Positions 4,516-55,954 of a stretch of 64,000 nt of DNA are shown here, piece by piece. Position 1 is the first letter of the stretch. Each line of letters begins with the position of its first letter. The notes under the pieces were generated by a model, which ran no database searches, was not told where the DNA came from, and saw only the letters and a program-made list of their open reading frames with translations. Source of the stretch: Halorhabdus tiamatea SARL4B (GTDB taxonomy: Archaea > Halobacteriota > Halobacteria > Halobacteriales > Haloarculaceae); assembly GCF_000470655.1 (NCBI RefSeq), contig NC_021921.1, positions 1,860,001 to 1,924,000 on the forward strand, written 5' to 3'. Both the position numbers and the translations under genes were made by a program.

Positions 4516-4530
4516 GGCACGGTGGGATTC
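4516..4530 (-). repeat. 15-nt copy of the tRNA-Arg 3' end
   Basis: The 15 bases here are identical to 4707-4721, the acceptor/T-arm 3' end of tRNA-Arg(TCT), in the same orientation and about 190 bp away on the 3' side of the tRNA. The remaining 4531-4705 is non-coding, with a T-loop-like TTCGAATCCC at 4651 in the opposite orientation. The tRNA-Val and tRNA-Phe genes have comparable 3'-side copies. Confidence 0.7.
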
Positions 4531-4705
4531 TCACCGAAGGAAGACGTTCCGGGCATGCGGCCTCGCTGCCTCACGGCTGCGCCGTTCGGCTTTCGAGGTC
4601 GCTTCGCGACCTCGTACCGCTCGGCCGGTCCGGGACTGCGACTTCCAGGCTTCGAATCCCCTGCGTGGTTGTTCAGCACGCCTCGTGTTCACTCGGCGGC
4701 TTCAC

Positions 4706-4780
4706 GGGCACGGTGGGATTCGAACCCACGAACCGTCGGATTAGAAGTCCGACGCTCTGTCCGGACTGAGCTACGTGCCC
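4706..4780 (-). tRNA. tRNA-Arg (anticodon TCT)
   Basis: The minus strand folds into a complete 75-nt cloverleaf. The acceptor stem GGGCACG pairs with CGTGCCC, the T arm contains GTTCGAATC, and the anticodon stem TCGGA/TCCGA encloses loop CTTCTAA. The anticodon TCT reads AGA. No intron and no encoded CCA are seen. Degenerate copies of its 3' end lie on its 3' side. Confidence 0.96.
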
Positions 4781-6020: not shown

Positions 6021-6422
6021 GCCGTCAGAAGTGGGTCCGGGCGTCCTCGTGAACGGAGTGAACGAGGGCTCGAGAGAGCAGAGCTCTCTCGGCGGATTTG
6101 AACCACGCCCACGTCGCTCGTTTCACTCGCTCGTGGTCTACCTCAAATCCGCCGACGCTTCGTAGACGCGGCGCTCGTAAATGAGCGCCGCGAGAACTCA
6201 GTGGGTCCGGGCGGATTTGAACCAAAGAAAGACTCACTTCGTTCGTCTTTCAGGGTTTAAACCGCCATGCCATTCGCTCCTCACGTCCGTTCGTCGCAGA
6301 ATGGGTCCGGGCGGATTTGAACCACGAGAACTTCGCTCTGCTCGTTCTCTGGGCTCAAATCCGCTTGTCCACACAGACGGCACTGGCTCCTCACTCCGCT
6401 CGGAGCAGTTGCCGTCAGAAGT
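6021..6422 (-). repeat. Tandem degenerate copies of the tRNA-Val 3' end interleaved with hairpins
   Basis: On the 3' side of tRNA-Val, the acceptor/T-arm sequence recurs in the same orientation at 6031-6042 (first 12 nt only), 6201-6224 and 6301-6325. A further piece of the T arm is at 6091-6104. Bases 6021-6042 match 6411-6432 over 22 nt without a mismatch. Between the copies are hairpins: core 6051-6061 with an 8-bp stem, core 6234-6244 (minus orientation) with a 7-bp stem, 6333-6343 and 6391-6401, plus a 10-bp palindromic stem at 6167-6192. No gene is seen in this stretch. Confidence 0.82.
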
Positions 6423-6496
6423 GGGTCCGGGCGGATTTGAACCACCGACCTCGGCCTTGTAAAGGCCACGTCATAACCAACCTAGACCACGGACCC
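6423..6496 (-). tRNA. tRNA-Val (anticodon TAC)
   Basis: The minus strand gives a 74-nt cloverleaf with acceptor GGGTCCG/CGGACCC, T loop GGTTCAAATCC and anticodon loop TTTACAA, anticodon TAC (reads GTA). No intron and no encoded CCA. Three partial copies of its 3' end follow at 6.03-6.33 kb. Confidence 0.96.
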
Positions 6497-25981: not shown

Positions 25982-26055
25982 GCCGCCTTAGCTCAGACTG
26001 GGAGAGCACTCGACTGAAGATCGAGCTGTCCCCGGTTCAAATCCGGGAGGCGGCA
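25982..26055 (+). tRNA. tRNA-Phe (anticodon GAA)
   Basis: A 74-nt cloverleaf has acceptor GCCGCCT/AGGCGGC plus discriminator A, anticodon stem CTCGA/TCGAG with loop CTGAAGA (anticodon GAA), and T arm CCCCGGTTCAAATCCGGG. No intron and no encoded CCA are seen. Its 3' side carries several degenerate copies of its own 3' half. Confidence 0.96.
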
Positions 26056-26540
26056 TTTTCTTGCGAACGAAGTGAGCAGTGAAAACGCCCCCGACCGCGA
26101 TTCGAACGCCGGGAGTCGCAGCCGAGCGAAGCGAGGACCGTCTCCCGGAAGTTCATCCGGGAGGCGGCATACCACTTTTTACTTCGTCGGGTTCGCCTTC
26201 GGCGAACCACTCCTCGCAAAAACTTGGGGAAAACGGCCGGACGCTCACTGCGTTCGCGCCCGGTGAAACCGCAACTCGCCTCGCTCGTCGCGGTATGACA
26301 AACTAACTGAAGATCGGGCTGTTCCCGTTCCCGCGAGCGGGAAGTCGAAAGACGAGCGCCAGCGAGTCTTTCGGGAGTTCACGATACGAGAGGCGGCATT
26401 TCTCTGAACTCGACTGGTGAGCGAAGCGAACCCAGCGAGTTCTGCAAGTGGTATCCGAGCGGATTTGAACTAGACCAGAAAGGCCCAGCGAAGCGAGCAT
26501 TTCTGGGCGTGATTCACAATACGGGAGGCAGTATTCCTCG
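26056..26540 (+). repeat. Array of degenerate tRNA-Phe copies and GNA-type hairpins
   Basis: No gene is seen from 26056 to about 26715. Acceptor/T-arm copies ending in GGAGGCGGCA-like sequence occur at 26145-26169, 26372-26398 and 26511-26533, progressively more diverged. An anticodon-arm copy (CTAACTGAAGATCGGGCTG) is at 26303-26321. Segment 26451-26472 resembles the tRNA-Val 3' end (18 of 22). Hairpin cores lie at 26065, 26124, 26245 (minus orientation), 26354 (12-nt variant) and 26419, several with 7-12 bp stems. The arrangement parallels the 3' flank of tRNA-Val. Confidence 0.82.
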
Positions 26541-52249: not shown

Positions 52250-52711
52250 GGCTGCGGGGAGTAAGCCCCCTTCTGTTGTCGGCATTCGGCTACGCGTCCG
52301 CGTCGTGTCCGGACTACCAGTCACGCGGACTTGCACCGGCGAGGATTCGCCGTTCCATCCGTTCTCGCCCGTCGACGCGCCGGATGGCGCGCCCAGTTCG
52401 TCGTGGGCGTGGGTCCCGTCGGGCCCCACGTAGCGACGCGCCCTCGGTGGGTTAGCTTTCCGTCGTTTGTTCGCCCGCTCGATCGGCCGCCTTGCGGCGG
52501 GGATCGACCGCACTTTCTCACTTCGGGGTCGCACACCTCATCGGTCGGGGCGAGTGGTCTCGTTTCTGTTCCAGTGCCGGCGGTCTCCCGCCCCGGGCTT
52601 GTGCCCGGTCGCCTGCCCGGACGGTGGGGGGACTTTCCTCATGCCCGTTGATCCGCTCCGGCGAAGCCGAAACGCACGTCCCGGGCACGGGAGCCGGGCT
52701 CCCGCTGCCAC
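52250..52711 (-). ncRNA. rnpB: RNase P RNA
   Basis: The minus strand carries the near-universal 5' signature GAGGAAAGTCC (complement at 52630-52640) and the 3' conserved segment ACAGAAGGGGGCTTA (complement near 52262-52276). The two ends pair as helix P1: TGGCAGCGGG (52701-52710) with CCCGCAGCC (52250-52258), with one A-A mismatch. Between them are the expected GC-rich helices. A TATA box CCTTAATTCT (52731-52740, minus strand) lies about 25 bp upstream. The 462-nt length fits haloarchaeal RNase P RNAs. The RNA is the catalytic part of the tRNA 5'-processing enzyme. Confidence 0.92.
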
Positions 52712-53590: not shown

Positions 53591-55954
53591 TCACTCCGGA
53601 GGACGGACCGGGACGGTCACCTCGTCGTTTTCGAGTTCGTCGACGTCGGCCGTGATCGTCACCTCGCCGGATTCACGGTCGGCCTGGACGATCGCCAGCG
53701 CAGTCCCGTGGGAGGCAGATCGCCGGGAGCCGGTGTAGGACTCGTCGCTCGCCAGATCGCCGTTGTCGATGCCGGCGAGATCGCCAGCGCCGCTGACGGA
53801 GAATTCAATCTCGTGGTCGGCTCGTGGGACGACGACGCCGTCGTCGTCGACGATCCGCGCGTCGACGTACACCAGATCCTGGCCGTCGGCCGTGATGGCT
53901 TCGCGGTCGGGATCGAGGTCGACCCGGGCGGGCTCACCCGCCGTTTCGAGCTCGTGGGTCGCGACGACCTCGCCGTCGGTCTCTGCGACGGCCCGAAGCG
54001 TCCCCGGCTCGTAGGGGACGTACCACTCGATCATGTGGTCGGGGTTGTCCGCGAGATGCTGGACGCCGATTGTCTCGTCGTTCTGATAGAGCGTGACGCG
54101 TTCGGCGTTGGTGAACGTCACGACGTGGACGAACCCGCGGGAGTCTTCCCGATCGGGGAACGTCCAGTGCGCCGAGAGGGCCGGCCACGACCAGGCCGGG
54201 CGGGCCGGCGCGCGCTCGCGGTCGGGATCGAACGCCGCGATCTCGACCATCGGCTCGTCGCTCCAGACGCTCCGATGGAAGGCAGCCGGCGGCTTGGGGA
54301 CGCCGCAGGTGTCGATCAACCCGGTCGGCCAGCCCTTGCTCGGCCACTCGCGGGCTTCCCCCAGGTAGTCGAAGCCGGCCCAGATGAACTGGCCGGCGAC
54401 GTCCGCCCGCTCGGCGACGTCGAACCACGGATTCCGCGGGACGAACGCGAGCGGATCGTCGCCCGACCCCCGGAAGAAGGGGCGACACTCCGAGCCGACG
54501 ATCGGGATGTCGACGCCCCGCTCGCGGAGTTCGTCGTAGTGGTGTTCCATGTAGTTGCCCGAGAAGAGATCGACCCGCTCGGCGACGGCCTCGGCGTTCT
54601 CGAGGATTCCCTCGTGGCCATCCCCCCACGCCGGGCTACCGTAGGTCGCCGGCCGCGTGGGGTCGAGGTCGTTGGCTGCCTCGACCAGCATCTCGAGGTC
54701 GTCGAGCATCCCCTCGTCGCCGTGGTCGTAGCTCTCGTTGCCGACGCTCCAGGCGATCACTGAGGGGTGGTTGCGGTCGCGGCGGATCATCGCCGCGAGA
54801 TCCTCACGCCACCACTCGTCGAAGAATTGCTCCGTCTTCTCGTGACGCCACTTGTCGAAGGCCTCGTCGATGACCAGAAAGCCCATCCGGTCACAGAGAG
54901 CCAGGAGTTCGGGCTGGGGCGGGTTGTGGGCGGTCCGGATGGCGTTGACGCCCATCTCGGCGAGCGTCTCCAGACGACGCTCGAGCGCGCGCTCGGGCAC
55001 GGCGGCCCCGAGTGCGCCCGCACTGTGATGGAGGTTGACGCCTTTCAGGGTCAACGAGTCGCCGTTGAGCAACACCCCCTCGTCGGCCGAGAACGTGACC
55101 GTCCGGATGCCAAACGGCGTCACGTAGTCGTCGACCGGTTCGCCCGTCGCCGCCCCCGTCTCGTCCGGGTCGCGCCGGTGGACGACGCTCCGGACGTGAT
55201 AGCGCTCGGGCGTCGCCGGCGACCACAGTTCGGGATCCGTGACGACGAGTTCCTGGTCGAAAGTCCCTTTCTCGCCGGCGTCGAGTCGCCGCTCGGTCGC
55301 GGTCTCGGCGACGACTTCGCCCGATGGATCGTAGACCGCCGTCGAGAGCGTGCACACGGCCGCCTCCTCGGCGTCGTTGGCTACCTCGGTGTGGACGTCA
55401 ACCCTGGCACGACGGCCCGTCACGGCCGGCGTGCGGACGTCTGTGCCCCACGGAACCACGTGGAGCGGCGACGTCTCGATCAGGTGGACGTGTCGGTAGA
55501 TGCCCGAGCCGGAATACCACCGGCAGTTCGGCAGGTCGGTATTGTCGACCCGGACGGCGAGCGTTTCGCCGCCCTCGGCCTGGCTGACGTCGTCGTTGAA
55601 ACTCGTATAGCCGTTGGGCCGGTTGCCGACGTGGTCGCCGCCGAGGTAGACGTCGCTGTCGCGATAGACGCCGTCGAAACGGAGGTACACCTTCCCCCCG
55701 TCGACGTCGGTCGGGAGCGAGCGACGGTACCACCCGACGCCACCAGGCAAGAACGCCCCTGCACTCCCGGCCGGGTGCTCCGGGTCGAACGGCCCCTCGA
55801 TGCTCCAGTCGTGTGGAATCTCGACCGATTGCCACCCGTCGTCGTCGAACTCGGGGTCGGCCGCTCCGTCGGCCTCGCCCTGGTGAAATCGCCAGCCCTC
55901 CTCGAGGCGGCGGGTCCGTCGGTACTGCTCGGTCGGTCCCGGAAAACCGCTCAT
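53591..55954 (-). CDS. GH2 family beta-galactosidase-type glycosidase
   Basis: The 787-residue enzyme has the GH2 plan. It runs from a sugar-binding N-terminal domain (to about 175, with SIEGPFDPEHPAGSAGAFLP) and an immunoglobulin-like domain (to about 290) to a TIM barrel with acid/base Glu in AWSVGNESYDHGD near 406 and nucleophile Glu in IPIVGSECRPFF near 490. A C-terminal Ig-like region follows. There is no signal peptide, so it acts inside the cell. GH2 includes galactosidases, glucuronidases and mannosidases; the length and DUF4982-like tail favour beta-galactosidase. It fits a sugar-degrading lifestyle. Confidence 0.9.
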   Translation of the reverse strand: MSGFPGPTEQYRRTRRLEEGWRFHQGEADGAADPEFDDDGWQSVEIPHDWSIEGPFDPEHPAGSAGAFLPGGVGWYRRSLPTDVDGGKVYLRFDGVYRDSDVYLGGDHVGNRPNGYTSFNDDVSQAEGGETLAVRVDNTDLPNCRWYSGSGIYRHVHLIETSPLHVVPWGTDVRTPAVTGRRARVDVHTEVANDAEEAAVCTLSTAVYDPSGEVVAETATERRLDAGEKGTFDQELVVTDPELWSPATPERYHVRSVVHRRDPDETGAATGEPVDDYVTPFGIRTVTFSADEGVLLNGDSLTLKGVNLHHSAGALGAAVPERALERRLETLAEMGVNAIRTAHNPPQPELLALCDRMGFLVIDEAFDKWRHEKTEQFFDEWWREDLAAMIRRDRNHPSVIAWSVGNESYDHGDEGMLDDLEMLVEAANDLDPTRPATYGSPAWGDGHEGILENAEAVAERVDLFSGNYMEHHYDELRERGVDIPIVGSECRPFFRGSGDDPLAFVPRNPWFDVAERADVAGQFIWAGFDYLGEAREWPSKGWPTGLIDTCGVPKPPAAFHRSVWSDEPMVEIAAFDPDRERAPARPAWSWPALSAHWTFPDREDSRGFVHVVTFTNAERVTLYQNDETIGVQHLADNPDHMIEWYVPYEPGTLRAVAETDGEVVATHELETAGEPARVDLDPDREAITADGQDLVYVDARIVDDDGVVVPRADHEIEFSVSGAGDLAGIDNGDLASDESYTGSRRSASHGTALAIVQADRESGEVTITADVDELENDEVTVPVRPPE

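Follow-up and report, generated by a model that had tools for sequence, protein, structure and literature searches.

Short, structured cassettes ending in tRNA 3'-end copies lie downstream of tRNA genes in Halobacteria

Introduction

The closest literature to the sequences reported here consists of an account of prophage-linked partial tRNAs in Haloquadratum (PMC3119063) and a review of archaeal tyrosine recombinases (PMC8371274). In the accessible part of the former, the partial tRNAs are few, lie kilobases away, and are attributed to prophages, and that part describes neither a cassette family nor a hairpin body. Integrons have been reported from archaea (PMC9668308), and the main text of that paper makes no mention of Halobacteria or haloarchaea. 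No description of the cassettes presented below was found in the literature; subscription journals lay mostly beyond the scope of the search, and an earlier description is possible.

The DNA analyzed here (the window) is a stretch of 64,000 nt from Halorhabdus tiamatea SARL4B (genome code G000; contig NC_021921.1, positions 1,860,001 to 1,924,000). Comparison tRNA by tRNA was carried out across three genomes, all of one genus: H. tiamatea and two relatives coded G005 and G006.

Results

Cassettes behind the tRNA genes of the window

The tRNA-Phe (gaa) gene was located at 25982–26055 on the plus strand by both ARAGORN and Rfam, and the core that is copied downstream of it corresponds to the portion from the T-loop to the 3' end (26034–26055). 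An earlier note, made from the sequence alone, had described this gene as followed by three or more decaying copies of its own 3' half. Three copies are indeed present, at 26151–26169, 26377–26398, and 26511–26533, but the copied part is usually just the last ~22 nt, from T-loop to discriminator, rather than a half. Each copy ends a unit, and a typical unit is laid out, 5' to 3', as a T-rich start, a hairpin termed H1, an inverted T-arm of its own tRNA, a second hairpin termed H2, and the T-loop-to-discriminator copy. The inverted T-arm that precedes the core copy in a typical unit was absent from the earlier note. The GNA-type hairpins that it had placed among the copies were located as GNA-loop hairpins within the units. 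Hairpins of this type also occur in other intergenic DNA of the window.

The first unit, cassette P1 (114 nt, 26056–26169, plus strand), is supported by a covariance model and by comparison with G006 and contains H1 (26056–26085), a degenerate inverted T-arm (26097–26107), H2 (26111–26149), and the core copy (26151–26169). The second, P2 (26170–26398, plus strand), is atypical and was recognized by reading the sequence; it comprises an anticodon-arm piece (26306–26327), which confirms an earlier remark that part of this arm is kept in the second copy, a hairpin insert, and a core copy (26377–26398) whose T-loop carries a one-base insertion (GTTCACGAT). P2 is possibly an old att remnant of a different element with a cassette hairpin inside. 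The third unit, cassette P3 (135 nt, 26399–26533, plus strand), is supported by the covariance model and by orthology with G005 and contains an inverted T-arm (26459–26470), H2 (26473–26508), and the core copy (26511–26533). Two of the three units are matched by the covariance model, P1 at 26055–26169 (E = 2.2e-7) and P3 at 26413–26533 (E = 1.9e-6), with the E-values of this model being rough. P3 is not a chance match because it is orthologous to the first cassette, directly behind the tRNA, in G005 (123 of 138 columns identical). The distal cassette stands alone in G005, compared with three units in H. tiamatea. In G006, the first cassette shares H1 and overall form with P1 (94 of 122 columns identical), and this proximal unit reads as if followed by a remnant of P3.

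Tails of the same kind are found behind all three real tRNA genes of the window, the other two being identified by ARAGORN and Rfam on the minus strand. Behind tRNA-Arg (tct) (4705–4780) lies a cassette of 189 nt (4516–4704, minus strand) with its core copy at 4516–4535. The tail of tRNA-Val (tac) (6422–6496) consists of three units on the minus strand, all matched by the covariance model: V1 (6302–6421), with a perfect core copy; V2 (6202–6301), the body of which is 97% identical to that in G005 and 87% identical to that in G006; and V3 (6091–6201), with a truncated core. A fourth ARAGORN call, tRNA-Thr(cgt) at 54405–54479, is likely a false positive, as it sits within a long ORF and is without Rfam support, leaving Arg, Val, and Phe as the only real tRNA genes of the window. 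An archaeal RNase P RNA gene was found by Rfam at 52250–52709 on the minus strand, and the Rfam search of the window returned tRNA and RNase P only.

Anatomy and fold of the cassettes

Units are mostly 96–160 nt long, with a range of 67–328 nt, and they carry no recombinase gene; their length precludes an integrase or cargo genes of their own. One example of H1 reads GCGGC-GA-AC-loop-GT-GA-GCCGC, whereas H2 frequently contains AGTCGCAG...ACGTCT with a GNA loop. Core sequences take the form GTTCAAAT, GTTCGAAT, or GTTCAATT. The inverted T-arm is an inverted copy of the T-loop and a T-stem strand of the local tRNA, it pairs with the direct copy, and it is specific for that tRNA (Wilcoxon P = 1.2e-5). 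To ask which core travels with the cassette, units with unlike left and right cores were examined for complementarity to the inverted T-arm: the left core was the better fit in 25 cases and the right in 11, with 12 favoring neither, but the count is confounded because right cores decay. Of 108 displaced cores in three genomes, 11, belonging to several tRNA types, have one extra base in the T-loop (TTCA[C]AAT and the like); the window cores at 26377–26398 and 26511–26533 are listed with this feature. The extra base may make the copy unusable as a target or for signaling processing.

The fold is conserved. Over an alignment of 33 units, 86% of cells are paired and 22 of 30 pairs show two-sided changes, with a covariation score of 0.362 against 0.157 for shuffled and 0.06–0.09 for slid alignments. 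Compensatory changes are located in H1, in H2, and in the T-loop letters, and covarying helices 2–4 have an unpaired spacer between them. In the stems, wobble-type G.T pairs outnumber A.C pairs (163 against 96 over two alignments); this excess of G.T would also fit selection on a transcript and is suggestive only.

The order of T-arm, inverted T-arm, and T-arm resembles the product of a double template switch, and replication template switching at the T-arm could in principle build such a direct/inverted/direct structure in place; the GNA-type hairpins found in other intergenic DNA of the window were also counted in its favor. This origin was rejected as very improbable: H1 and H2 are homologous among different tRNA loci and not locally derived, and the inverted part ends around the T-arm, stopping short of the acceptor strand instead of continuing through it.

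Survey of tRNA 3'-end copies across the genome

The occurrence of similar tails at three tRNA genes in one window had been taken in the earlier note as pointing to a general mechanism, and a whole-genome survey of tRNA genes bore this out. The last 22 nt of each of 42 tRNA genes (Rfam model) was scored against the surrounding 1.5 kb on either side. Copies specific to the tRNA's own 3' end were found within 700 nt downstream of 25 of the 42 genes of H. tiamatea, so that most tRNA genes of this genome have them, contrary to the lack of copies at other tRNAs that the note had named as telling against its reading, and behind 22 of 41 and 16 of 42 tRNAs in the two relatives. No upstream own copies were found at the surveyed tRNA genes with the same scoring. 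When tRNAs were swapped as a control, the mean was 0.6 and the maximum 3 in H. tiamatea, and the means were 0.5–0.6 across the three genomes; chance similarity is ruled out by these own-versus-other tRNA controls together with the upstream controls. The decay away from the gene that had been noticed at tRNA-Phe also recurs: among 35 neighboring pairs of copies in three genomes, the copy nearer the tRNA is the better match in 18, equal in 13, and worse in 4.

Two further loci were observed alongside this survey. A tRNA-Pro(cgg) that is not in the Rfam tRNA set is followed by three tandem cassettes (G000:C2:934405-934824). At tRNA-His (G000:C2:1390500-1393800), an own 3'-end copy and a cassette lie upstream on the opposite strand, with the gene facing away, an arrangement that would result if the gene had flipped with respect to its own tail.

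Distribution of the cassette family

Searches of the H. tiamatea genome with the covariance model gave 39 matches at a (rough) E-value of 0.001 or below, of which 35 directly follow a tRNA gene on its own strand; the remaining 4 are one antisense echo of a tRNA-tail unit and three displaced units. Across 147 sampled genomes of the phylum, the model was positive in 26 of 28 Halobacteriales and in none of the 119 others. An independent scan with a simple pattern, using no tRNA information, was run over ~85,000 bacterial and archaeal genomes. Among the matches listed were 64 haloarchaeal and 16 other stretches; 59 of these 64 haloarchaeal stretches follow a tRNA on the same strand at a distance of no more than 400 nt, whereas none of the 16 listed from elsewhere is near a tRNA or matched by the model. 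Positives of the pattern scan include Halobacterium salinarum, Haloarcula, Natrialba, and Halocatena. The cassette family is restricted to Halobacteria.

Against Rfam 15, the cassettes match no family, with just tRNA and chance-level matches at 10 loci. A viral source was also sought. Viral contigs yielded no convincing cassette, generic-pattern matches in IMG/VR scored weakly with the model, and a second pattern gave 8 matches, by pattern alone.

Gain, loss, and turnover between sister species

Arrays behind the same tRNA differ among the sister species by whole units, with copy numbers of 0–4 that vary for the same tRNA. An extra cassette between the tRNA and a shared one was seen at Asn, Arg-ccg, Thr-ggt, Gly-gcc, Ala-ggc, Arg-gcg, and Ser-tga, gains being counted by eye on clustered arrays in which decayed distal units may escape detection. 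In four pairs of empty and filled sites (Asn, Arg-ccg, Thr-ggt, and Ser-tga), the body is inserted precisely at the tRNA end, and the resulting 22-nt duplication of that end is exact in three of the four, with one mismatch in Thr-ggt. At Asn, for example, G005 carries the tRNA, a new 160-nt cassette, and then the cassette it has in common with G006 (259/264), with an exact 22-nt duplication; identity between the two genomes is 98% within this shared cassette, compared with 90% upstream and 95% farther downstream. To judge by these sequence comparisons, insertion has been precise, tRNA-specific, and repeated. The Gln-ttg cassette is identical over 111 of 111 positions in H. tiamatea and G005 with strongly diverged flanks. 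The Gly-gcc cassette is identical in three species and is weak evidence of transfer because the upstream DNA there is likewise 97–98% identical; Gln-ttg is the better case.

The earlier note had read the graded decay as repeated duplication of the proximal end of the tRNA. Repeated events with addition next to the gene are borne out, but the added units are inserted cassettes rather than duplications of the tRNA's own end. The body outside the tRNA-derived part (H1, inverted T-arm, and H2) lies between successive copies and is homologous across tRNA genes and genera, so it is whole cassettes that are inserted, and each brings its tRNA-end copy along.

Some of the turnover suggests exchange at short repeats, namely the tandem duplicates at Gly-tcc (186-nt period) and units at Met and Ser-tga that have H1 in common but differ in H2. 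Homologous recombination alone, with cassettes moved by exchange among related cells and by unequal crossing-over between 22-nt repeats and with no dedicated recombinase today, would explain these cases; it leaves unaccounted for both how new cassettes specific for a tRNA would arise at single-copy genes and the precise insertion beside the tRNA at many loci, and as a full account it is unlikely.

The same comparisons bear on a function in the host. If the tail were co-transcribed, its hairpins could aid 3' processing of the pre-tRNA, termination, or stability, with similarity maintained by gene conversion. Structure that covaries on the tRNA-sense strand, stems with more G.T than A.C, a fixed orientation with the T-rich start directly behind the tRNA, and occurrence across the Halobacteria would all suit such an RNA element. 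However, many tRNA genes have no tail, copy number behind the same tRNA varies from one sister species to another, units exchange or replace their bodies, and the distal copies degenerate; this erratic presence and rapid replacement speak against the role because a required function would be expected to be more stable. A host RNA function is the main rival to mobile cassettes, kept alive by the G.T excess, and is considered unlikely.

Large elements and gene-bearing units at tRNA ends

Two tRNA genes of H. tiamatea have no adjoining unit and a cassette far downstream: tRNA-Arg(tcg), with the cassette at ~46 kb (45.7 kb; stretch G000:C2:48852-94662), and a tRNA with the anticodon cat, with the cassette at 62 kb (stretch G000:C2:1745651-1807666). 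Genes of the integrase family lie near the far ends of both stretches, which are probably integrated elements, and in each case the arrangement suggests that the intervening element inserted so as to separate the tRNA from its older tail. A family-level search for Phage_integrase gave 8 matches in the genome and none within the window. The 3' end of tRNA-Arg(tcg) has an A in H. tiamatea and a G in the relatives, and the far copy retains the G, a pattern by which the incoming element seems to have given this tRNA its present 3' end.

Such elements raise the question of whether the cassettes are scars of large tRNA-integrated elements (proviruses or plasmids), each copy being an att site left after deletion of the interior. 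Large elements with integrase-family genes do occupy the same tRNA ends, and att repeats are usual at such sites according to PMC8371274 and the accessible part of PMC3119063. Scars of this kind should have irregular, element-specific interiors, in contrast to the bodies of, as a rule, 96–160 nt and the uniform plan of H1, inverted T-arm, and H2 seen at most tRNAs and in many genera, and the right ends of the inspected elements lack inverted T-arm and H2. Because the inspected far-end junctions are without this plan, the cassettes are not simply remnants of large elements, and the scar explanation is judged improbable.

Units of a second type, which bear genes, were observed at tRNA-Arg genes of three related genomes (G002:C21:45500-53500, G001:C6, and G008:C1:2826001-2880000). 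Copies of the tRNA acceptor end delimit them, and their own ends are conserved, left GCTTTCGTTCGATG... and right ...CGTTCGACAGTC... At least nine left ends are spread across ~40 kb behind tRNA-Arg(tcg) in G008, and the cargo there includes TrkH/TrkA, Usp, histidine kinases, MCP, Fic and PIN proteins, and transposases; no integrase was present among the 20 proteins scanned. These units look like a tRNA-anchored gene-cassette array.

Discussion

The tails are probably built by non-autonomous, site-specific mobile cassettes that replace the 3' end of a tRNA gene and displace the old one, with a recombinase presumably supplied in trans. The cassette would bring a substitute 3' end, made up of the T-loop, the 3' strand of the T-stem, the 3' strand of the acceptor, and the discriminator, with a T-rich tail after it, and because it carries this end, the tRNA would be regenerated upon insertion. 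Strand exchange would occur in or just before the T-loop. The former 3' end would be pushed downstream, where it would be free to decay, and repeated insertion at one spot would give an array with its youngest unit beside the tRNA. The recombinase would most likely be a tyrosine integrase, as in the larger elements at the same tRNA ends, and the folded hairpin of inverted T-arm and T-arm may be the recognition structure. Selection for a working tRNA would keep the end of the cassette matched to its target, and the small cassettes may use the same 3'-end replacement as the large element at tRNA-Arg(tcg).

The cassettes look like a family of miniature tRNA-targeting mobile elements that has gone undescribed. 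If they are, hairpin elements of ~120 nt would have their capture sites at most tRNA genes throughout a class of archaea, host tRNA 3' ends would be replaced repeatedly without breakage, and a record of insertion would be kept at each tRNA. The family would also offer a test case for the adaptation of one element family to ~40 targets, and few site-specific mobile units known to us would be smaller than its members. In haloarchaea, a provirus could then not be called reliably from short partial tRNA copies. The gene-bearing arrays at tRNA-Arg suggest a tRNA-anchored system of gene capture. More tentatively, and with some doubt, the hairpin cassettes could represent a previously undescribed archaeal counterpart of the integron, with tRNA genes as its anchors. 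Non-coding cassettes, folded and possibly single-stranded, would be captured successively by the tRNA 3' end via recombinases acting in trans, joined in some genomes by gene-bearing cassettes of the second type at the same tRNA ends.

Among known repeats, REP/BIME palindromic elements and MITEs are, as the cassettes are, short, non-autonomous, hairpin-forming intergenic DNA. They are scattered and carry no copy of a neighboring gene, whereas the cassettes are defined by their specificity for a tRNA end. A MITE driven by a transposase has terminal inverted repeats and a random target-site duplication; the boundaries of a cassette are set instead by the tRNA 3' end, and the duplication is that tRNA's own end. 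The partial tRNA duplications of Haloquadratum, as given in the accessible part of PMC3119063, likewise lie downstream of the gene in a haloarchaeon. With tRNA-targeting islands the cassettes would share regeneration of the tRNA, and, like genomic islands and proviruses, they are flanked on both sides by the tRNA 3' end in direct repeat, as in the four empty/filled pairs. Integrated islands, proviruses, and plasmids span kilobases and encode a tyrosine integrase (PMC8371274), whereas the cassettes measure ~0.1–0.2 kb, are non-coding and structured, and occur at most tRNA genes of an archaeal class.

Integron attC cassettes and CALINs, for which archaeal integrons (PMC9668308) provide the comparison, differ in that their units carry a gene, whereas the cassettes are non-coding and have H1 where the gene would be. 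The anchor here is the tRNA gene itself, with ends specific to the individual tRNA, and the R' core of integrons is GTTRRRY, whereas the cassette core is GTTC(A/G)A(A/T)T, in which C follows GTT. At the level of the Phage_integrase family, no candidate integron integrase was seen within the window. Common to both are modular tandem units beside a fixed anchor, units that are gained and lost whole with new ones mostly proximal to the anchor, and an imperfect hairpin with an outer stem, an internal loop, an inner stem, and a variable tip.
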